Part shown: positions 35,977 through 46,526 of the stretch, piece by piece
Layout: every line of letters starts with the position of its first letter
Position numbering within the stretch: position 1 is the stretch's first letter
Assembly (NCBI GenBank): GCA_020445145.1
Contig: JAGRHC010000021.1
Span: 1-64,000 of the forward strand
Direction: 5' to 3'
Origin: Alphaproteobacteria bacterium
Lineage (GTDB): Bacteria; Pseudomonadota; Alphaproteobacteria; Micavibrionales; Micavibrionaceae
Length of the DNA stretch: 64,000 nucleotides
Program-made: the position numbers and the translations under genes
Notes under the pieces: generated by a model
What the model was told of the DNA's origin: nothing
The model's database searches: none
Seen by the model: only the letters and a program-made list of their open reading frames with translations

Positions 35977-37083
35977 TTATAAGGTGCTTGCCGCGCGCAT
36001 GCAACAGCGGGTGAATTTTTCAGGGCATATGCATTTGCCGCCTTCAGCGCAGGTGACGGGTTTTTCTGTGTGGGTTTTCACGAGGGTGGCCAGCGCGTTG
36101 ATGAAGACCGGGTTGGTGCCGACGGTTTTGGCGCGGTAGTAGCCGGGGAGGCCGAGATCTTTGGCCATATGGGCGTATTCTACGTCCAGCTCGACGAGGG
36201 TTTCGACATGTTCCTGGGTGAAGGCGTGGGGGTAGACGATGACCGGTTTGTTGTCGGTGGCGGCCTTGCGCAGGGCTTCCTCGATCGAGGGGCCAATCCA
36301 TTTTAGAGGGCCAACACGGCTTTGGTAGCAGATTTGCCAGTCTACCGGCTGGGATAATGTGTTTGCGGATTCAGATTTCTTGCTATCGCTCGAAATGACA
36401 ATGGATAGTTTCTCGGCGATTTTGGCGGCGGTGCGTTCGCATTGGTGTTGGTAAGGGTCGCCGCCATTGACGATTTTTTCCGGCAGGCCGTGGGCGGAGA
36501 ACAGGATACGCGGGGCGGTATGGCCGTCTTTTTGGGCTTGTTCGATTTTTTCGCGGATGTGGACGGCGGAGGTTTCGAGGAAGCCTTCATTTTCGCTGTA
36601 ACAGCAGATGGTGCTTCGGGGGGCTTTTAGGCCGACTTTATCGGCGGCGCTTTTCCAGCTTTGCAGTGCGGACCATGTGGTGGTGGTCGAGAATTGCGGG
36701 TAGAGGGGAAGCTGGACGATGTGATCGGGGGACCAGCTTTTGACCTCTTCGACAACTTGCGGGGCCATCGGGTGCCAGTAGCGCATGCAGGTGAAGACTT
36801 TGTATTCGATGCCGTTTGCATTTTCGTTCAGGGTTTTTTCAAGGGCGTCTTTTTGCGCGTTGGTGTTTGCCAGCAGCGGGGATTTATCGCCAAGCTCGCG
36901 GTAGCTGTCGCCTGCTTCGCGGCGGGAGCGTTTTATGCTGATGTATTTGGCGAGGAAAAAGCGGATCGGAGCCGGCGCGCCGATGATGTTGGGGTCCATG
37001 AAAAAATTGAACAGGAAAGGTTTTATGGAGTCTTTGGAATCCGGGCCGCCGAGATTGTAGAGGATGACTGCTATTTTTTTCAT
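35977..37083 (-). CDS. hemH: Ferrochelatase with cysteine-rich C-terminus
   Basis: HemH inserts ferrous iron into protoporphyrin IX. It starts MKKIAVILYNLGGPDSKDSI. Other signatures are LFSAHGLPEKIV with the catalytic His near residue 196 and a late Glu in FTQEHVETLVELDVEY (split by the window of the motif). The C-terminus has five cysteines in CAEGGKCICPEKFTRCC, which could hold a [2Fe-2S] cluster as in some alphaproteobacterial ferrochelatases. The start overlaps the hemE stop by ATGA. Confidence 0.95.
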   Translation of the reverse strand: MKKIAVILYNLGGPDSKDSIKPFLFNFFMDPNIIGAPAPIRFFLAKYISIKRSRREAGDSYRELGDKSPLLANTNAQKDALEKTLNENANGIEYKVFTCMRYWHPMAPQVVEEVKSWSPDHIVQLPLYPQFSTTTTWSALQSWKSAADKVGLKAPRSTICCYSENEGFLETSAVHIREKIEQAQKDGHTAPRILFSAHGLPEKIVNGGDPYQHQCERTAAKIAEKLSIVISSDSKKSESANTLSQPVDWQICYQSRVGPLKWIGPSIEEALRKAATDNKPVIVYPHAFTQEHVETLVELDVEYAHMAKDLGLPGYYRAKTVGTNPVFINALATLVKTHTEKPVTCAEGGKCICPEKFTRCCMRAASTL

Positions 37084-38120
37084 GGTTTTGCCTCGCGGAT
37101 GATTTTAACAAGTTGTTCGACATGTTCAATGGGGGTGTCTTTGTGTATGCCGTGGCCGAGGTTGAAGATAAAGGGTCCCTGCCCCAGATCGAGGATGATT
37201 TTTTCGGCGGCGCGTTTGAGGGAGTCGCCTCCGGCCAGAAGGCAGACGGGATCGAGGTTGCCCTGGACCGGGATGAGGGGCTGGAGTGCGCGGGCGGCCC
37301 ATTTGGTATCGGTGGCGGAATCCAGGCCGATGGCGTCTATGCCTGCTTCTTGCGCGAAAATATGGGCGTTTTGTCCGGCGCCGCGCGGGAAGCCGATGAT
37401 CGGGGTATGGGGGTGTGATTGTTTTATGATTTTAACAATTTCACGGATGGGCTGGAGAGACCATTGGTGGAACTGGTGGGAATCCAGCGCGCCTGCCCAG
37501 CTGTCGAAAATCTGGAGGGCCTGGGCGCCGGCGTTGATCTGTTTGATCAGGTAGGCGGCGGTGGCTTCGATCAGGATGTCGATGAGTTGCGCGAAGGCTT
37601 CGGGGTTTTGGTAAGCCATGAGTTTGGTTTTGAGGAAATCACGGCTGGAGCCGCCTTCGATCATGTAGGAGGCGACCGTCCATGGGGCTCCGGCAAAGCC
37701 AATCAGGGCGGTTTCGGTGAGGCCTTCGGATTTGAGCATGTTCCGGGTTTTTTTGATCGCTTCGTAGACCGGGGTCAGGGTGGTTTCGAAATTTTTATAA
37801 TTTAATTTTTTGAACTCTTCCGGGGTGGTTAAGGGATCGAGTTTGGGGCCTTCGCCAGCGACGAATTCGAGATGCTGGCCGAGCGCATGCGGGATGACGA
37901 GGATGTCGGAGAAGATGATGGCTGCGCTCATCTGAAAACGGCGGATGGGCTGGATGGTGATTTCTGCGGCCATGTCCGGGTTGTAGGCCATCGCAAGAAA
38001 ACCTCCTGCTTTTTCGCGTAAAGCGCGGTATTCAGGGAGATAACGGCCTGCTTGACGCATAAACCAGAACGGGATGCTGTCGGTTTTTTGTCCTGCCAGG
38101 GTTTGTAAAAAATTGCTCAT
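37080..38120 (-). CDS. hemE: Uroporphyrinogen decarboxylase
   Basis: HemE converts uroporphyrinogen III to coproporphyrinogen III. The N-terminal signature PFWFMRQAGRYLPEYRALR holds the substrate-binding Arg residues, and GFAGAPWTVASYMIEGG follows near residue 142. Length 346 is typical. It heads the hemE-hemH-hemJ operon. In Caulobacter and Rickettsia the region upstream of hemE carries the replication origin; here a 440-bp gap is in that place. Confidence 0.97.
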   Translation of the reverse strand: MSNFLQTLAGQKTDSIPFWFMRQAGRYLPEYRALREKAGGFLAMAYNPDMAAEITIQPIRRFQMSAAIIFSDILVIPHALGQHLEFVAGEGPKLDPLTTPEEFKKLNYKNFETTLTPVYEAIKKTRNMLKSEGLTETALIGFAGAPWTVASYMIEGGSSRDFLKTKLMAYQNPEAFAQLIDILIEATAAYLIKQINAGAQALQIFDSWAGALDSHQFHQWSLQPIREIVKIIKQSHPHTPIIGFPRGAGQNAHIFAQEAGIDAIGLDSATDTKWAARALQPLIPVQGNLDPVCLLAGGDSLKRAAEKIILDLGQGPFIFNLGHGIHKDTPIEHVEQLVKIIREAKP

Positions 38121-38560
38121 GGTTTTTCCCTTGATGGGTTTTATCGGTTCCTCGAATTTTTCCGAAGATAAAGAGAAAATAAAAAATAAAAAGTATTTTT
38201 AAAAAGGTTTTAGAAAGATGTAGGGGCTGTGGGTCGTGGGGATTAATTTTATTCCGGATTTCATACACATTATGCGTTTGTGTGAGTCTGGCGGTTGCTT
38301 TTCGATTCGAGCGATTTCCACACATAAGTCATTTGTAAACATTTTTACTTTCACACATGTGCGGGAGTCAGGGTTGGAGGTTCGGGAAAAATTCGGGGTA
38401 ACTTCATCCCCGGATTTATACAAGAATGACACAAATATTCTCACACAGAGTTTTCCCGTGGGGACGTTTTTTAAGGGTTTGGACGAGAAGTCTTGATTTT
38501 CCAAGAGTATCGTCGATAATCGGGGAGTGTAACACTTTTCTATAAGGCGAATCGTTTCTT
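38121..38560. other. 440-bp gap upstream of hemE, candidate origin region
   Basis: No gene is evident. It has an AT-rich block (38158-38220), two related segments CCGGATTTCATACACA (38264) and CCGGATTTATACAAG (38411), and five CACA-containing motifs in one orientation that resemble loose DnaA boxes (TTATNCACA), though none is perfect. hemE-adjacent origins are known in Caulobacter and Rickettsia. Against this, no G/C-skew switch is apparent here by eye. Confidence 0.3.
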
Positions 38561-39175
38561 ATGTTCCAGGAAGCTCATGTAAAACTTGATCTTGATGAAA
38601 CTGCATCTGTTCTGGATGTCGTTAACGAGATGGTTGAAGGTAGTTTGTTTGATCCTTTGGAGACAACGATTCTGGCGGTTGATTTGCCTTTTTATGAGGG
38701 ATGGCGGTTTTTGGATATCGCCGATCATGCGACGTCGCCTCCGCTCCAGCGCTATGTGTTTCAGAAGGAAGACGGCTTTATTATGCTGGATTGGAGTTAT
38801 CGGCCTATTTATGTGGTGAACGAACTGGCGCCGGTAAAGATAGATGAAGAGACGGTTTTAGATTATGTGCGTTTTTTCTTTTCTCATGTGCGGGGAAAGC
38901 ACGGGCGGTTTATTCTTTGTGAGAGTCTTGAGAATGTGAACTGGAAGGAAGAGCCTCCGGTGACCGCGCGAAAAAGTTTTGCTGATTTTATCAAGCCAAT
39001 GGAAATTCTTGAGATGCGCGAAGACGGGGTTTTTAAAATTGATGCACGGATGCTTTTGAAGGATGCCTTGTTTAAGGTCAATGTCTATGTCGAGCCTTCG
39101 GGGCGTGTCACTCTGACGGATCACGAAGTGTTGATTGAGGATATGCCTGTCCTCGATCATGTATTCGCGCAGTAA
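38561..39175 (+). CDS. Hypothetical protein, 204 aa
   Basis: A soluble acidic protein with no recognised family. It reads as alternating beta strands and short helices, for example ILAVDLPFYEGWRFLDIADH and QRYVFQKEDGFIMLDWSYRP. The C-terminus VEPSGRVTLTDHEVLIEDMP may be a beta domain. It is the first of three rightward unknown genes between hemE and dnaQ. No strong ribosome site precedes the ATG (ATAAGGCGAATCG upstream has a weak AAGG). Confidence 0.65.
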   Translation: MFQEAHVKLDLDETASVLDVVNEMVEGSLFDPLETTILAVDLPFYEGWRFLDIADHATSPPLQRYVFQKEDGFIMLDWSYRPIYVVNELAPVKIDEETVLDYVRFFFSHVRGKHGRFILCESLENVNWKEEPPVTARKSFADFIKPMEILEMREDGVFKIDARMLLKDALFKVNVYVEPSGRVTLTDHEVLIEDMPVLDHVFAQ

Positions 39176-39390: not shown

Positions 39391-40722
39391 ATGAGCGATT
39401 TTTTTGAAAATATTGTTGAGACTACAGGTCTTGAAAACAGGGTATGCCGCGTGGCTTACACGCTGGATAACGCGCAACCGGTTTTGTGCTCTATTATTGG
39501 AGACCAGCCTCTTTTTTATATGGATTTTGAAGACGACATTCTTGATGAAGATGACGGTTTCTTTGACGGGTCCGAGCTTGGTCTGCTGGACTATGAAATT
39601 CAGACTTTGAAAGAAGAAATTGCCGGGTTTGAGAGTTACTCCCCGCTGGTTTCTCAAGGTGGTCTTATGGAACGCGTAGAAGAATTTTCCGAGAATATCG
39701 ATTATGTGACCGGGGCTAAGGATTTTGGTGACAAACCAGCCAGCCTTAAAGAGATTCAAGATGTTCTGGTGCAAAGCAGACTGGCTTCGGCTTATCTCGA
39801 TTTTGCGCGGGAGCATAAGATCAATATTGTGATAAGCAAACAGGTCGAAAAGGCCTTTTATGATCGTCGCAGCGGGACGATTTCTCTCAATCCGGATTTG
39901 AGCCGGACTGAGCAAGTGCTTTTGATGGTGCGTGAGTTGCGCCGTCACTGGCAGCACCGGAACGGGGTTTTGATTAATCCCCTGATGTTCCAGCCGGAGA
40001 ATGCTATTCTGGTGAACCGGTCTCAGGAAGCTGATTTGACGATTTCTATGGTGCGGGTTGCGTGGGAATTGCAACTGGCCGGGATTCACGAGGTTTGGGA
40101 AAGACTTGAAAATTCGCCGATGGGTGATCTGGCGCGAGCTTTTGCGCGCGAGGCGTTTATGGATTTCCGTACGATTAACAACGGCGTTGCTTCTGCGGCG
40201 GTATTCGAGGCGTGGTTCCTGTCCGAGCGTTGCCGCCAGCAAGATAAGAAAATCATACAGGCAATGCTTGCCGACTATAAGGGATATGTGTTCGACAATC
40301 CGGGGGCGTCTGAATCTGTGACGGCGGAACTGATTTCCGGACTCGGGAGCATGCCGTACGGCAAAAATTACCTGGCGGTTCATGCCGTGACGATTATGAG
40401 TGACCCTATTTTTACCGAGGTACGCGATCGGTCGAATGCTAATTTCCTGTGGTTTATTAAGTTCGAGCGCTCCTTTAAAGAAACGGAACGGGCTTTGCAG
40501 ACGGATACAGACTTATCCACACATGATGTTCGTCATGATCTGTTGAACGCACAAAGTCAGGACCGTTTTGATGAAAACCAAAAAGCTGCAGAAATCATTC
40601 ATCTTTTCCCACAAGGGCTCGAAGCCTCTGCCGGCGGAAAAGGGAGCAAGCTTCTTTCGGACAAGCGGCGAAGCGCAGGTAGTGCCGAAATTATCGATTT
40701 TAAGCGCTGGTCGGAACGCTGA
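39391..40722 (+). CDS. Unknown protein A of a paralogous pair, degenerate DUF6782/metallopeptidase-like
   Basis: A 443-residue protein. Residues about 115-325 align by eye with the next gene: KINIVISKQVEKAFYDRRSG matches its WKIGLEDLHGGEYCIDVERK. VLLMVRELRRHWQHRNG matches VVTLIKALRDVWQEKRHG, and YLAVHAVTIMSDPIFTEV matches YLQGMGAEIMADPLYCGM. The helix around RELRRHWQH recalls the HExxH-type helix of DUF6782 putative metallopeptidases, but the catalytic HE pair is absent. An AGGA site precedes the ATG. Function unknown. Confidence 0.72.
   Translation: MSDFFENIVETTGLENRVCRVAYTLDNAQPVLCSIIGDQPLFYMDFEDDILDEDDGFFDGSELGLLDYEIQTLKEEIAGFESYSPLVSQGGLMERVEEFSENIDYVTGAKDFGDKPASLKEIQDVLVQSRLASAYLDFAREHKINIVISKQVEKAFYDRRSGTISLNPDLSRTEQVLLMVRELRRHWQHRNGVLINPLMFQPENAILVNRSQEADLTISMVRVAWELQLAGIHEVWERLENSPMGDLARAFAREAFMDFRTINNGVASAAVFEAWFLSERCRQQDKKIIQAMLADYKGYVFDNPGASESVTAELISGLGSMPYGKNYLAVHAVTIMSDPIFTEVRDRSNANFLWFIKFERSFKETERALQTDTDLSTHDVRHDLLNAQSQDRFDENQKAAEIIHLFPQGLEASAGGKGSKLLSDKRRSAGSAEIIDFKRWSER
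40513..40521 (+). other. Isolated perfect DnaA box inside a coding region
   Basis: TTATCCACA is a perfect DnaA 9-mer, within the 39.4-kb gene. A single box in coding DNA may be chance. Confidence 0.3.
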
Positions 40723-40756
40723 GGCGTCTGTTGGTGCTGCGTGTATTGATGGGTAT

Positions 40757-41761
40757 ATGAGTGTGAAGAGTCCTAAAACTACTAAAAAAGCGATAGATTT
40801 GACGGCGCTGCGTGATCTGGCGGTTCTTGACGTTCAGAACGAGTGGTTTTTGGCTGACCTGTTCGATTTAACGTCCGATTATCATGATCTTTTTTCCGAT
40901 ATTTGCGATGTGCAGGACTATAACACGGTTTTGAGCTGGTGTTTGCATGTGCTTGGGGAAAGTCCGAGCGGGCGTGCGATGCTTAAGGAAGCGATGGAAG
41001 CGGACTGGAAGATCGGTCTTGAGGATTTACACGGTGGTGAATATTGCATCGATGTCGAGCGTAAGGTTTTGCTGCTGGATAATAATACGCTTGTGCCTTC
41101 GGCGCTGGGGCGGTCGAGTTATTTTCGGAATATGACGGTTGTGACGTTGATTAAGGCGCTGCGCGATGTGTGGCAGGAAAAGCGGCATGGTGCGTTTGAT
41201 GTTTATTATCGCCCGGAGCATATTATGACGCTGGAGCGGGTGCGGGCTGCGGATTGTGCGGCGGTATCCATCCTTGTAGGCTGGGAGCTTCGTAATGAGG
41301 AGCATGGCGCTGTGTGGCGGCATTTGATCGGGTCGGAGAACGGGGATATGGCGATGGTTTATTCCGGGCATCTGGAGCGCGATCCTTCGGCGCGGTTTAG
41401 CGGGCGCGCTTTGGCGGCAGCGTTCAAACAATGGTTTAAAGATGAGCAGCGGGTCAATTCTTGCGATCATGATACGCTGGAATATCTGGACGATGTTTTG
41501 GCGGAGTCTTCAGTTCTTAATCCGTTTGGTAAGAAAAAGCCGGGGCGGATGGCGGTCGAGGTTTTATCCTGTCTGCCGGACAAGACGGCCTATCTGCAAG
41601 GGATGGGTGCGGAGATTATGGCTGATCCGCTGTATTGCGGGATGGATGATCCGATCAACCAGTCTCATTTGTTCCATATTCTTTATGATCTTGAAGCTGT
41701 GATTGTCGGGGATGTGCCGTTTCGTGATGCTGATCTCGCGCGGCGGATTTTTCCGGAATAA
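40757..41761 (+). CDS. Unknown protein B of the paralogous pair
   Basis: A 334-residue soluble protein, paralogous to the preceding gene over most of its length (shared pattern GYDEL-like helices, the ALRDVWQEKRHG segment, WELRNEEHGAVW against WELQLAGIHEVW, and MADPLYCG). It too lacks HExxH. The start at 40757 follows the stop of gene A by 34 bp. The frame runs back to 40568 inside gene A, but that part reads unlike either protein. A terminator (41828-41865) follows. Confidence 0.7.
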   Translation: MSVKSPKTTKKAIDLTALRDLAVLDVQNEWFLADLFDLTSDYHDLFSDICDVQDYNTVLSWCLHVLGESPSGRAMLKEAMEADWKIGLEDLHGGEYCIDVERKVLLLDNNTLVPSALGRSSYFRNMTVVTLIKALRDVWQEKRHGAFDVYYRPEHIMTLERVRAADCAAVSILVGWELRNEEHGAVWRHLIGSENGDMAMVYSGHLERDPSARFSGRALAAAFKQWFKDEQRVNSCDHDTLEYLDDVLAESSVLNPFGKKKPGRMAVEVLSCLPDKTAYLQGMGAEIMADPLYCGMDDPINQSHLFHILYDLEAVIVGDVPFRDADLARRIFPE

Positions 41762-41867: not shown

Positions 41868-42560
41868 TCAGGCTTTTTTCCAGAGAGGTTCTTTGAGCTG
41901 GCTTATCATTTCGGCGTGGGCGGCCAGTTCTTCGGCGCTGGCCGTGTGGGGGCGTGGTTCGCGGAAGGGGCGGGATTTGGCGGCGGCGTTTACAGTTTCG
42001 CTTTGTGCAGCGGATTGGTTCGCGGTGAGGCTGAGGCCGTGCTGGCGGCCGCCGAGGAGTTCGAGGTAGACTTCGGCGAGGAGTTCGGAGTCGAGGAGCG
42101 CGCCGTGGAAGGTTCGGGCGGTGTTGTCGATGCTGAAACGGCGGCATAATGCGTCAAGGTTGGCTGGAGAGCCGGGGAATTTTTTGCGGGCGATCATCAG
42201 CGTGTCGACGACGCGGGTTTTGCTGATTTCCGGGTGGCCGACGTTTTTAAGCTCCCAGTTGAGGAATTTCATATCAAACTCGGCGTTGTGGATGACGAGT
42301 TTGCTGTCATCGCCGATGAAGTCGATGAACTCGGTGTAGACCTGAGAGAAGACGGGTTTGTCTTTGACGAAGTCGTTGGTGATGCCGTGGACGGCGGTGG
42401 CTTCGGCAGGGATGTCGCGCTCGGGGTTGATGTAGATCTGGCAGGTTTTGCCTGAGGGCAGGTGGTTGACGAGCTCGACGGCGCCGATTTCGATGATGCG
42501 GTCGCCGGAGAACGGGTCCATGCCGGTGGTTTCGGTGTCGAGTACGATTTCGCGGATCAT
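41868..42560 (-). CDS. dnaQ: DNA polymerase III epsilon subunit (3'-5' proofreading exonuclease)
   Basis: Epsilon proofreads for the replicase. The Exo I motif is DTETTG (D8, E10), Exo II is HNAEFDMKFLNWEL and Exo III is HGALLDSELLAEVYLEL, so all catalytic residues are present. Length 230 is normal, with a Pro/Glu-rich clamp-contact tail. Its ATG overlaps the coaE stop (TGATG). It is the last gene of ppsR-maf-aroE-(YdeI)-coaE-dnaQ. Confidence 0.97.
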   Translation of the reverse strand: MIREIVLDTETTGMDPFSGDRIIEIGAVELVNHLPSGKTCQIYINPERDIPAEATAVHGITNDFVKDKPVFSQVYTEFIDFIGDDSKLVIHNAEFDMKFLNWELKNVGHPEISKTRVVDTLMIARKKFPGSPANLDALCRRFSIDNTARTFHGALLDSELLAEVYLELLGGRQHGLSLTANQSAAQSETVNAAAKSRPFREPRPHTASAEELAAHAEMISQLKEPLWKKA

Positions 42561-43219
42561 CAGGCCAGTTCCTCTTCGGCGATTTTTTTCGGGGCGGGCG
42601 GCGTTTCTTTTGCGCGGATGTTGAGCAAGGCGGATTTGAGGGCCTGCATGGTGTAAGCGCGCCCTGCTCCGGTCGGGATAACGTAATCGGCGAGTGTGCG
42701 TTTTTCTGTATCGGGCATCTGGGTTTGCAGGATGGCCTGGAACCGGGTTTCCGTCATCCCGGGGCGGGCGAGGACGCGCTGGCGCTGGATGTTGTAGGGC
42801 GCCGAGACGCTTAAGGTATAGTCGAGATATTGGTCTGCGCCTTTTTCGAACAGGAGCGGGATATCTAGGCAGGCGATTTCAACGCCTTTTCGCTGACTTG
42901 CGCGCAGGAACTCAAGCTGGCTTTTGCGGACGAGCGGGTGGAGTATGCTTTCGAGGCGCTCGCGGGCGCTTGCATCTTTGAAGACGAGGGCGCCGAGTTC
43001 CTTGCGTTTCAGGGTTTTGGTTTTTTTATCGTATAGATTCTGATGGTCGAAATAGGGGAAGGCGGCGGCGAGGGCTGGCCGGGCCGGGGAGTCCGGTTCG
43101 AGGAGGCTGTGGACGCAGGCATCGGCATCGTGGACGGGAATGCGCATGGTTTCCATCATCGCGGCTACGGTCGATTTTCCCATTCCGATGGAGCCAGTCA
43201 GGCCGAGGACGATCATCAT
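42560..43219 (-). CDS. coaE: Dephospho-CoA kinase
   Basis: CoaE phosphorylates dephospho-CoA, the last step of coenzyme A synthesis. The P-loop GLTGSIGMGKST is at residues 6-17, with the CoA-binding VHDADACVHSLL following and a DIPLLFEKGAD motif near 120. Length 219 is typical. There are two adjacent ATGs; I use the first. It is coupled to dnaQ by TGATG. Confidence 0.96.
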   Translation of the reverse strand: MMIVLGLTGSIGMGKSTVAAMMETMRIPVHDADACVHSLLEPDSPARPALAAAFPYFDHQNLYDKKTKTLKRKELGALVFKDASARERLESILHPLVRKSQLEFLRASQRKGVEIACLDIPLLFEKGADQYLDYTLSVSAPYNIQRQRVLARPGMTETRFQAILQTQMPDTEKRTLADYVIPTGAGRAYTMQALKSALLNIRAKETPPAPKKIAEEELA

Positions 43220-43339
43220 AGTCTTTCCACTTTATTTTTACACAGTGTTGCCGCACTGCTTCCGTATACTTATACGCTACGTCGTTTGCACCTTGTTGAA
43301 AATAAATTGAAACGACTATTAATTTCAATCGATTTAAAA

Positions 43340-43591
43340 TCAACGATGTGGGCATCCGGGCCAACAACAGGGTCGGCGCTTTCCCTGACTGAGGTTTTCG
43401 CAGCCCCAGGTGATGCGGCGGTTTCTTGTTTCTTCCTTTTTCGCAGACTCGATCCAGCATATCCATTCATTGCGGGCGAGCGGCGTGATGTCCATCCATG
43501 TTGCCAAGGCTTCGGGGGTTGTATCAAGCGCTTTTTTTAAATCGTCTGGAAGGTTATGAACGACGCCGCCGGGGATTTCATTTTTTGGCAT
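43340..43591 (-). CDS. YdeI/OmpD-associated-like protein, short form
   Basis: An 83-residue protein whose pattern PDDLKKALDTTPEALATWMD, ITPLARNEWICWIESAKK and a Cys-rich tail (GKRRPCCWPGCPHR) match the C-terminal YdeI/OmpD-associated family. Full members are longer, so this is a stand-alone domain. The last part has four cysteines and may bind metal. It lies between coaE and aroE, which are usually adjacent, so it is an insertion in the operon. Confidence 0.8.
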   Translation of the reverse strand: MPKNEIPGGVVHNLPDDLKKALDTTPEALATWMDITPLARNEWICWIESAKKEETRNRRITWGCENLSQGKRRPCCWPGCPHR

Positions 43592-43605
43592 GATTGTCTC
43601 CGTTG

Positions 43606-44448
43606 TCAGGACAAGACTTTTTCACGCAAATCTTCTGTGACCTCCGGCATTATGCCGTGCCAGAGTTTGAAGCCGGGGCGGGCTTGGTGCAAGAGCATGC
43701 CGATGCCGGTGATGATCGGGTTGCCGTTGGCTTTGGCCTTGGTGAGGAGGTCGGTCATCAGGGGGGCGTAGACGATGTCGTTGACGTGCGCGGCGGGCGG
43801 CAGGTGCGTCAGGTCGATTTCGAGCGGGGTTTTTCCGGTCATGCCGAGAGAGGTGGTGTTGACGAGGAGGTTCAGGTCTTGCTGGGTTGATTTTTCGCTG
43901 CGGGCGTCCCAGTTGAGGAGTTTGATTTTCTCCGGGGTGGAAGCGTTCTCGAGGAGTTCCAGCGCTTTTTCTTTTGTGCGGTTGGAGAGGCGAATTTCGG
44001 GGACGCCCTGGGCGATGAGGCCCTGGATGATTGCTCTTGCCGCGCCCCCTGCCCCGAGAACCAGCGCCGGGCCTTTGGTGAAGTCGAAATCGGGCGCGGT
44101 TTCACGGATGTTCTGTGTGAAACCGTAGACGTCGGTGTTGGTGCCGGAGAGTTTACCGTTTTCGATTGTTACGGTGTTGACGGCGCCGACGATGCGGGCG
44201 AGGTCGTCGATTTGATCGCACAGGCTCATGATGTCGACTTTGTGCGGGACGGTGATGTTGAAGCCTTTGTAGCCTTCGCGGATGAGGGTCTGGACGCCCT
44301 CCTCCAGATCTTCGCAAGGCAGGTCGATGGCTTCGTAGGTGGCGTTCAGGCCGTGTTTTGCAATCCAGTGACCATGGATCAGGGGGGATTTGCTGTGGCT
44401 GACGGGGTGGCCGATGAGGGCGGTTTTTGTGGTCATGTTCGTCGTCAT
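43606..44448 (-). CDS. aroE: Shikimate dehydrogenase (NADP+)
   Basis: AroE reduces 3-dehydroshikimate in aromatic amino-acid synthesis. Shikimate-binding IGHPVSHSKSPLIHG is near the N-terminus and the NADP loop LGAGGAARAI is mid-protein, with NRTKEKAL after it. I set the start at 44448, where the ATG overlaps the maf stop (ATGA); the frame extends to 44679 only as an antisense shadow of maf. Length 280 is normal. Confidence 0.96.
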   Translation of the reverse strand: MTTNMTTKTALIGHPVSHSKSPLIHGHWIAKHGLNATYEAIDLPCEDLEEGVQTLIREGYKGFNITVPHKVDIMSLCDQIDDLARIVGAVNTVTIENGKLSGTNTDVYGFTQNIRETAPDFDFTKGPALVLGAGGAARAIIQGLIAQGVPEIRLSNRTKEKALELLENASTPEKIKLLNWDARSEKSTQQDLNLLVNTTSLGMTGKTPLEIDLTHLPPAAHVNDIVYAPLMTDLLTKAKANGNPIITGIGMLLHQARPGFKLWHGIMPEVTEDLREKVLS

Positions 44449-45035
44449 GGCAAGAGCCCTTGTTGCTGGCGTAAGTAGGTTAGAAGCGGCGGGAGCGGCA
44501 AGCCCATGATGGTGAAGAGGTCGCCGTCTATTTCCTTGAACAGCCATGCGCCGGGGCCTTCGATGCGGTAGCCGCCGACGCAGGATGTGAGAGCTTTGGG
44601 GTCGCGGTCGGTGATGGCTATTAAGGCCGGTTTGTCCAGATCGTGCATGGTGAGCGCGGCTTGATTCACGTGAAACCAAAGGATTTCATGGTCTTTGGCG
44701 ATACAGACGGCAGAGATAAGGGTGTGGGTTTTGCCGCTTAGGGTTTCGAGTTGGGAAAGCCCCTCCTCCGGCGTTTTTGATTTTGTGAGGATGCGGTTTT
44801 CAAAGACCAGAGTCTGGTCAGCGCCGATGATGAGTGCGCCGGGGTTTTGGGATGCGATGTGCAGGGCTTTTTGTTTGGCCAGCTCGAGGGTGATGTCTTG
44901 CGGGGGGGTACCCTTGGCGGACAGGGATGTCAGGATTTGGCCTTCGTCGATGTCGGCTGGTTGGCATTTGAAGGACAGGCCGGCATTTTGCAGGATAGAC
45001 TGGCGTGCCTGGCTGGCGGAGGCGAGGACGATCAT
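44445..45035 (-). CDS. maf: Maf-like nucleoside triphosphate pyrophosphatase
   Basis: Maf/YhdE/YceF proteins hydrolyse non-canonical or methylated nucleotides such as dTTP/UTP or m7GTP. It begins LASASQARQSILQNAGL with the substrate-loop arginine, and has LIIGADQTL and the GGYRIEGPGAWLF motif. Length 196 is typical. It overlaps ppsR and aroE by four bases each (ATGA), so three genes are coupled. It also carries a parS-like site. Confidence 0.95.
   Translation of the reverse strand: MIVLASASQARQSILQNAGLSFKCQPADIDEGQILTSLSAKGTPPQDITLELAKQKALHIASQNPGALIIGADQTLVFENRILTKSKTPEEGLSQLETLSGKTHTLISAVCIAKDHEILWFHVNQAALTMHDLDKPALIAITDRDPKALTSCVGGYRIEGPGAWLFKEIDGDLFTIMGLPLPPLLTYLRQQQGLLP
44662..44677. 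promoter_or_regulatory. parS-like site 7 (within maf)
   Basis: TGATTCACGTGAAACC matches 14 of 16 positions, including the TTCACGTGAA core. It lies 14 kb from the nearest other site. Confidence 0.65.
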
Positions 45036-45904
45036 GATGATCCGGGGTCCATCTTTTCGCTGCTATTTTGTTTGTCCCAGCGGCTTTGCAAGAGTGCCAT
45101 GACTTCGGCGGCGGTTTCCTCGATCGAGCGTTTGGTAACGTCGATGACCGGCCAGTGATGCTGGGTGAAGAGGCGGCGGGCTTTGCGGACTTCTTCCTCG
45201 ATTTTGTCGGCGTCGAGGTAGGTGTTTTCTTCCAATGCTTTTTCGCCGGTTTTTTCAGCCTTCAGGCGGTTGCGGCGGATGTGGACGAGGCGCTCTGTTG
45301 CGGCGGTCAGGCCGACATACATGGGTTTGGGGTAGTTGAAATATTCTTCCGGGACCGGGATGTCGGGGATGAGCGGGATGTTGGCGGCTTTGATTCCACG
45401 GCGGGCAAGGAAGACGCTGGTCGGGGTTTTCGAGGTGCGGGAGACGCCGACGAGGACGACGTCTGCTTCGGCGAGACCCTTGAGGTTTTTGCCGTCGTCG
45501 AAGCGCATGGCGAATTCGATGGCGGAGACGCGCTTGAAGTAGGCGTCGTCCATGACGTGCTGGAGGCCGGGGACGCCTTTGGCGTGTCTGCCGAGGTAGC
45601 CGGAGAGCGTGTGGATGATCGGGTCGAGGACTGCGACGCATGGTACGCCGAGGTGATCGCAATGGTCTTGCAGGCGGCGGCGCATTCTTTCGTTGACGAA
45701 GGTGAAGACGACCGGGCCGGGGTTTTCATCGATGCGCTGGATGACACGCTCGAGCTGGCGCTCGGTGCGGACGAGGGGCCAGAATTTCTGGTTGGGCTCA
45801 ATCCCTTCGAACTGGGCGAGGCAGGCGCGGGACAGGCCGAGCAAGGTCGTGCCTGTCGCGTCGGAGACGAGGTGAATATAGAATTTCTTTTGTTCGTCTT
45901 CCAT
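45032..45904 (-). CDS. ppsR: Pyruvate phosphate dikinase/PEP synthase regulatory protein (DUF299)
   Basis: A bifunctional serine/threonine kinase and phosphorylase that controls pyruvate phosphate dikinase or PEP synthase. It begins FYIHLVSDATGTTL, has the P-loop-like GVSRTSKTPTSVFLARRG near residue 150, and FYIHLVSD/IPEEYF-type signatures. Length 290 is normal. It heads the leftward operon ppsR-maf-aroE-coaE-dnaQ, 24 bp after secB. Confidence 0.95.
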   Translation of the reverse strand: MEDEQKKFYIHLVSDATGTTLLGLSRACLAQFEGIEPNQKFWPLVRTERQLERVIQRIDENPGPVVFTFVNERMRRRLQDHCDHLGVPCVAVLDPIIHTLSGYLGRHAKGVPGLQHVMDDAYFKRVSAIEFAMRFDDGKNLKGLAEADVVLVGVSRTSKTPTSVFLARRGIKAANIPLIPDIPVPEEYFNYPKPMYVGLTAATERLVHIRRNRLKAEKTGEKALEENTYLDADKIEEEVRKARRLFTQHHWPVIDVTKRSIEETAAEVMALLQSRWDKQNSSEKMDPGSS

Positions 45905-45928
45905 ATTTTGCCGTTATGAGCTCTGTGC

Positions 45929-46462
45929 CTAGTTTACGGTTTGATTGGCTTCCAGGTCATCCTTCAGGTCTTCTTTGAAGCGCTGGATGTAGAGGGCCTG
46001 AAAATCGACAGGGTTCAGCAGTAATGGTGGATAGCCGCCTTGTGAGGTTGTCGTGGACAGGATCTGGCGGCAGAACGGGAAGGCAAAGCGCGGGATTTCA
46101 ATCAGGAGGATCGGGTGGTGCTGGTCTTCCGGGACGGCTTTGTCGATGGAAACCATGACGCCGTAGGCCATTTCGGCAATGAAGACAACTTGTTCGCCGC
46201 GGGTTGCGGTGGCTGTGACGATCAGGACCACTTCGTAGAGATTTTCGATTTCAGGGTCTTCGAGTTTGCGGGCATCCATGGCAATATTGACGTCCATTTC
46301 CGGTGCCCCTGCCCCGACGCGGAACGATGCCGGTGCATTTGGGTTTTCAAAGGACAGATCGCGTACATATTGGGTGTGGATGGTGACGGGCATGGCTCCG
46401 GCTGGTACTTTTCCTACTTCCGGTGCTTGTGTTTCGTTTGTTTGGTCGTCGTTCTCGCTCAT
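45929..46462 (-). CDS. secB: Protein-export chaperone SecB
   Basis: SecB is a cytosolic tetramer that keeps preproteins unfolded for SecA. Signatures are IHTQYVRDLSFENPNAP and MDVNIAMDARKL near the N-terminus, and AYGVMVSIDK and FPFCRQILSTTTSQGGYPPLLL (split) later. The ATG at 46462 gives the family N-terminus. A frame start at 46492 adds ten residues without a ribosome site. The C-terminus is acidic. Confidence 0.95.
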   Translation of the reverse strand: MSENDDQTNETQAPEVGKVPAGAMPVTIHTQYVRDLSFENPNAPASFRVGAGAPEMDVNIAMDARKLEDPEIENLYEVVLIVTATATRGEQVVFIAEMAYGVMVSIDKAVPEDQHHPILLIEIPRFAFPFCRQILSTTTSQGGYPPLLLNPVDFQALYIQRFKEDLKDDLEANQTVN

Positions 46463-46526
46463 CTTGCTTACTGTCCCTGAAATACGTTGCATTACAAGTT
46501 TGCTTTAGCATGAAAAGTGTTGCTTC

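Follow-up and report, generated by a model that had tools for sequence, protein, structure and literature searches.

The window analysed here is a stretch of 64,000 nucleotides from a Micavibrionaceae genome assembled in 93 contigs. It carries three genes on the same strand, referred to as A, B and C, beside a divergent gene that we take, from its sequence, to be hemE (Table 1). The open reading frames of B and C are uninterrupted, and the start of C was placed at the ATG directly past the end of B. Hydropathy analysis detected no membrane segments in A, B or C.

Table 1. Positions in the window of the genes, domains and motifs of the A-B-C locus
Feature	Position	Strand	Description
Gene A	38561..39175	+	204 aa; gene adjoining hemE
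Gene B	39391..40722	+	443 aa; putative DUF6782 pseudo-peptidase
Gene C	40757..41761	+	334 aa; putative diverged DUF6782 pseudo-peptidase
DUF6782 (PF20573) domain of B	39691..40374	+	profile match 127.3 bits, E 5.2e-37
DUF6782 (PF20573) domain of C	40952..41581	+	profile match 68.5 bits, E 4.8e-19
Pseudo-active site of B, RELRR, residues 181-185	39931..39945	+	replaces HExRH
Second motif of B, R210-S-Q-E-A-D215	40018..40035	+	replaces EADA motif
Pseudo-active site of C, KALRD, residues 133-137	41153..41167	+	site alignment
hemE-A intergenic gap	38121..38560	.	39% GC; putative replication origin, by synteny
hemE, divergent neighbour and origin landmark	37080..38120	-	orthologues found by homology

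DUF6782 domains and the altered active site

Against Pfam, both B (125.4 bits, E 2.8e-36) and C (68.9 bits, E 5.2e-19) matched DUF6782 (PF20573), whose cut-off is 27 bits. BLASTP aligned the two proteins with 26% identity over 193 residues (E 5e-16), and this alignment contains the stretches from which the initial annotation had judged them alike by eye over about 200 residues. The resemblance was thus borne out, and the alternative named there, that HMMs would show no relation, did not hold. The homology shared by the two proteins covers their common domain (residues 172-359 of B), which is about the length judged by eye. Judged by sequence, B and C are diverged DUF6782 paralogues whose likeness goes far beyond chance. 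In a quick tree of 94 rows, the B sequences formed one group and the C sequences another (SH-aLRT 99), and B and C as sisters were supported at an SH-aLRT of only 20.

An alignment of 97 B sequences, consisting of the window and 96 of the 99 loci collected from the family (three short loci were left out), contains 33 invariant columns, among them R184, R210, D215 and a stretch of fixed positions at 345-359; this degree of constraint argues against decay of B. Constraint is weaker on C, whose alignment of 54 sequences (53 of the 86 C loci were used) has 9 invariant columns; for A, 60 of the 62 loci were aligned. In three genomes the B-profile match crosses one to three stop codons, mostly TGA (G080:C260:1954-3243, G089:C8:135146-136393 and G090:C68:22117-23424).

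Active DUF6782 relatives carry HExRH followed by EADA, a signature drawn from 36 sequences that had themselves been gathered by HExRH...EADA. At the aligned site, HExxH was found in none of 100 B sequences (the 99 loci and the window) and in none of 87 C sequences. The window's proteins read RELRR in B and KALRD in C at this site; across the sequences, the first histidine is replaced by Arg, Lys or Gln and the second by Arg in B, and the corresponding changes in C are to Arg or Lys and to Asp. Arg occupies the first histidine position in 73 and the second in 85 of the 100 B sequences, E182 is present in 92, Q188 in 98, and R184, R210 and D215 in all of them. At B213, the candidate third ligand of the EADA motif, glutamate occurs in 19 of the 100, the window's B included, with the histidines absent, and C has R-A-A-D at the position of this motif. 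The region of the former active site still ranks with the best-conserved parts of B.

The observation in the initial annotation that the HExxH catalytic pair is missing needs a qualification: both histidines are gone in B and C, but B, unlike C, retains the glutamate. Twenty loci from five further families of the order were also read, and neither protein carries HExxH at the site in any of them. By the usual criterion, then, B and C appear to have been catalytically dead since before the order diversified. One C protein (L215) contains HETRH, elsewhere in its sequence.

The strong conservation of the site (E182 in 92, R184 and D215 in all of the 100 sequences) could be taken to mean that B, and perhaps C, are still enzymes with an altered catalytic set formed by E182, R181, R185 and D215. 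We find this hard to credit, as both zinc-ligand histidines are gone, the EADA glutamate is kept in only the 19 B sequences mentioned above, and a binding pocket would explain the conservation equally well.

The structural model of B has a mean pLDDT above 90 over residues 121-290, with both ends at low confidence. Compared with solved structures, it gave, at the top of the VIA-align list, ten rows at Z 5.0-5.6, for example IrrE, Wss1 and aminopeptidase N, all ten of which we take to be zincin peptidases or zincin-fold proteins. Foldseek gave no match for this model at E 0.001 or better, and searches of the A and B profiles against the sequences of solved structures gave no reliable match (best E 0.039 and 0.94). 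A zincin fold is therefore likely from the family assignment, and the model confirms it weakly, at Z under 6.

The source genome has a third DUF6782 gene, C75:7439, which retains HELRH. Active HExxH copies occur in some genomes, and DUF6782 matches total 9-10 in each of the two M. aeruginosavorus-type genomes, so that B and C might regulate active DUF6782 peptidases of their own cell or serve as decoys for them. Such a role seems improbable, since 55 of the 104 family genomes have exactly two DUF6782 matches, and in those checked, the near-complete genomes G013, G021, G056 and G092, these sole matches are B and C themselves. The pair thus persists where it has no active sibling, and regulation of one as a general role was rejected. 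Outside the order, DUF6782 is expanded to 14-29 matches per genome in the alphaproteobacterial genomes G143, G191, G214, G330, G358, G424 and G501 (loci L363 and L347); many of these genes carry HExxH and lie in tandem arrays.

Distribution, gene order and the origin locus

Micavibrio, a predator, belongs to the same order as the source genome. Among the 142 genomes of the order, B was found above 200 bits in 134 and C above 140 bits in 123; the absence of one paralogue from all relatives, which the initial annotation had named as an outcome that would speak against the pair, was thus not observed. B orthologues in named records came from Micavibrio and from other alphaproteobacterial metagenome genomes. 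In a class-wide sample of 385 genomes, B-profile matches outside the family were found in 7 genomes, at 96 bits or less.

Four of the eight genomes in which B was not found are family genomes (G011, G028, G055 and G098) that also lack hemE and ppsR, so that their missing B is uninformative. They are rated 97-100% complete, and yet they contain neither these landmarks nor B or C, and hold only an A-family gene resembling the second paralogue described below. A joint loss of the trio in these genomes was considered and dropped, because the hemE and ppsR searches there also came back empty. The origin region is probably missing from the four assemblies; the empty searches had no positive control, so they show little.

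The typical gene order is hemE (on the opposite strand), A, B, C, ppsR, maf, aroE, coaE and dnaQ. A, B and C are consecutive on one strand in 58 of the 99 family loci, and C directly follows B in 86. The 13 loci in which it does not are 10 of genus g29, that of G057, and L077 and L102, in which B lies close to a contig end. In 10 of the 11 g29 genomes C is not beside B, and the genes are mostly scattered, B and C having moved off while A remains by hemE. In the window (41868-46492), the dnaQ-coaE-aroE-maf-ppsR block keeps its place but is inverted compared with most relatives, as it also is in the three g8 loci L082-L084.

The genomes in which C was not detected include all eight g51 genomes (G128-G135), G057 and G104, several of which are 77-88% complete. 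B is present in nine of these ten, G133 lacking both, and in the four of them whose loci were read, A adjoins hemE or stands close to B. In two g51 loci, the gene following B is unrelated and on the other strand. At the G104 locus (L205), B lies apart from A, near genes which, read by eye, we take to be parA, parB and a gene for a Sel1-repeat protein.

A mirror-tree test was performed on the 26 of the 99 loci that hold all nine genes compared. Distances were first corrected for the divergence of hemE, hemH and ppsR, and the residuals were compared by partial correlation with 300 permutations. The coefficients were 0.57 for A-B, 0.50 for A-C and 0.47 for B-C, against 0.28 or less for the other 12 pairs, which involve hemJ, aroE or coaE. 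The trio shows correlated divergence above that of its neighbours, with the caveat that the genes lie together on a single chromosomal stretch.

These data bear on the suggestion in the initial annotation that B and C may be pseudo-enzymes forming a heterodimer, with A as third partner. Such a model is comparable to peptidases that pair an inactive paralogue with another subunit. The pseudo-enzyme part stood, both proteins being without catalytic histidines in an old and order-wide state. An obligate pairing is another matter: the tandem arrangement in 86 of the 99 loci, the correlated divergence of B and C, and the fact that both groups predate the split of the order are in its favour, but C is undetected in g51, G057 and G104, where B mostly remains, and it has left the side of B in nearly all g29 genomes. 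The proposed check by genomic co-occurrence therefore spoke against B and C obligately going together. We consider an obligate heterodimer unlikely; B and C may form one that is not obligate.

The trio also occupies a particular place on the chromosome. The gene known as COG1806 or DUF299 is, we presume, ppsR. In the account given in PMC1914354, the origin of Caulobacter and Rickettsia sits between hemE and COG1806, and that of Caulobacter, with these two flanks, was mapped experimentally. The position of the trio between hemE and, in most relatives, ppsR thus corresponds to the canonical alphaproteobacterial origin locus. Shuffled sequences gave an expectation of 3.3 relaxed DnaA boxes for the 57 hemE-A gaps of relatives, where 30 were counted, and of 2.4 for the A-B gaps of 59 loci, where 3 were counted. 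The window's own hemE-A and A-B gaps contain no relaxed DnaA box. A strict box, TTATNCACA, lies within gene B at 40513 and is one of four across the window.

The flanking genes and the excess of boxes would fit a trio that acts in replication or segregation and is kept beside the origin for that reason. This strikes us as very unlikely, because B and C of g29 have relocated while A stays by hemE, the window's own gap is without a relaxed box, no DNA-binding family was matched, and conserved genes commonly sit near origins.

Gene A and its linkage to DUF6782 genes

Gene A matched no Pfam or NCBIfam family. An A-family gene is present in all 104 family genomes, most of which also have a second paralogue of about 30% identity. 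One such second paralogue is found at L165:6526-7185, in a region whose genes, read by eye, we take to be rnpA, yidC and engB-like.

In the class-wide sample, A-family genes occur in 25 of the 385 genomes, including all seven non-family genomes that carry DUF6782. In these seven genomes, 7 of the 15 A genes have a DUF6782 gene as neighbour, against 0.28 expected (P 4.6e-9); the 15 are all A matches listed there, weak matches included. Five of the seven adjacencies were checked by open reading frames, and in each of them A is on the same strand and upstream of a DUF6782 gene bearing HExxH; the other two are given by coordinates alone. Several of the loci read had been fetched since coordinates already showed the adjacency. 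In G242, A genes lie around a DUF6782 gene without HExxH. The initial annotation had guessed that the gene at 38561 was a third partner of B and C, and this guess has gained support from gene order, from correlated evolution and from the pairing of A-family and DUF6782 genes elsewhere.

A is predicted to be an alpha/beta protein with two similar halves: its model (pLDDT 91.6) has helices and strands repeated in both. The best rows against solved structures are cystatin-fold proteins, all tied, at Z 5.5 or less and with one half aligned (about 70 residues), and Foldseek gave no match for A at E 0.001 or better. The first two rows, fetuin-B (Z 5.5) and latexin (Z 5.3), are peptidase inhibitors, but they tied with monellin and others, and a function of A as an inhibitor is not claimed. 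Absence of a family from these structure lists does not speak against it.

The A domain was also found at the C-terminal end of two larger proteins, an nSTAND1-ankyrin protein of S. meliloti plasmid pEm1132b (L390:2418-8600; 85 bits) and an AAA/TPR protein of a Ca. Thiodictyon plasmid (L391:6261-8555; 73 bits). The nSTAND1-ankyrin gene lies directly downstream of a gene for a patatin-like phospholipase, and the arrangement resembles that of a conflict system ending in an unnamed domain. The C-terminal part of STAND NTPases is often the sensing part, and the place of the A domain at this end suggests that A recognises another molecule. With PADLOC models at E 0.1, no family was found for A, B, C or one active pair of A and DUF6782. 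Searches of phage records gave no match for active DUF6782 or A, and no relative of A was seen in viral contigs.

Proposed explanation and comparison with known systems

We propose, with the chances about evenly balanced, that A, B and C may be a soluble binding module without catalytic activity that descends from an older module made of an A-family protein and a DUF6782 zinc peptidase. As B and C lack the cutting residues and are retained across a whole order, they probably act by binding and not by cutting. The ancestral two-gene module would have consisted of A as a recognition protein and a DUF6782 zinc peptidase; in the origin-side copy of the Micavibrio order, both peptidase paralogues would have lost catalysis and been domesticated as a binding module, with B and C as its docking subunits. 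B and C would keep a peptidase-type domain in which the zinc ligands have been replaced, and for this reason the usual mechanism of peptide hydrolysis should not operate in them. The former active site of B is probably reused as a docking pocket, and A would probably serve in recognition or as an adaptor, bound to B and, if present, to C. A and B would form the core, with C as an accessory paralogue lost in some lineages. We infer here a physical complex, the reuse of the pocket, what A and C do within the module, and its process in the cell.

The absence of C in g51, G057 and G104, together with the scatter in g29, means that a single fixed complex of three proteins cannot be general, and a module of A with DUF6782 is a better reading than an obligate B-C heterodimer. 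A wider interpretation is put forward tentatively, as a somewhat doubtful one: A could be a new alphaproteobacterial recognition domain, and A with a DUF6782 zinc peptidase an undescribed two-gene module for conflict or regulation, related to STAND-NTPase sensors through A, of which the Micavibrio order would have fixed a dead copy as a core component at its origin.

DUF6782 has so far been described as no more than a domain of unknown function, and our literature search found no paper naming it and none on Micavibrio aeruginosavorus together with a pseudoenzyme. The locus offers a pair of apparently dead bacterial peptidases that a whole order has fixed; as the pair has a linked partner gene and clear active relatives, and its pattern of loss is informative, the role of dead peptidases can be asked in a simple genetic system. 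The trio is in addition a lineage-wide marker for Micavibrio and its kin, which are mostly uncultured, and the unnamed A domain is linked both to DUF6782 peptidases and to STAND NTPases.

Within DUF6782 (PF20573), a putative metallopeptidase family, B and C score far above the cut-off and cover most of the profile, and they differ from their active relatives in having lost the HExRH...EADA signature. Among the inactive metallopeptidase homologues treated in PMC11266112, where the pseudo-peptidases reviewed are mostly eukaryotic, are mitochondrial processing peptidase alpha, Ebp1 and Tma108. As in the examples given there, a peptidase fold is probably kept in B and C while catalytic or metal-binding residues are lost; those homologues serve in the binding of partners or substrates, and some are one of two paralogous subunits. 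Unlike the M16, M24 and M1 cases in that source, both paralogues are apparently inactive here, and they are linked with A, a gene that is not of peptidase type. The Listeria pair of a metzincin and a TIMP-like protein, as described in PMC8235301, resembles our locus in that a metallopeptidase gene adjoins the gene of a partner; the Listeria proteins are secreted or membrane-bound and active, whereas B and C are apparently inactive and A has no detected relation to TIMP. The STAND NTPases of S. meliloti pEm1132b and the Ca. Thiodictyon plasmid share with our locus a homologous A domain, carried at their C-terminal end; in them it is fused to nSTAND1/ankyrin or AAA/TPR parts, whereas here A stands alone beside two putatively dead peptidases.
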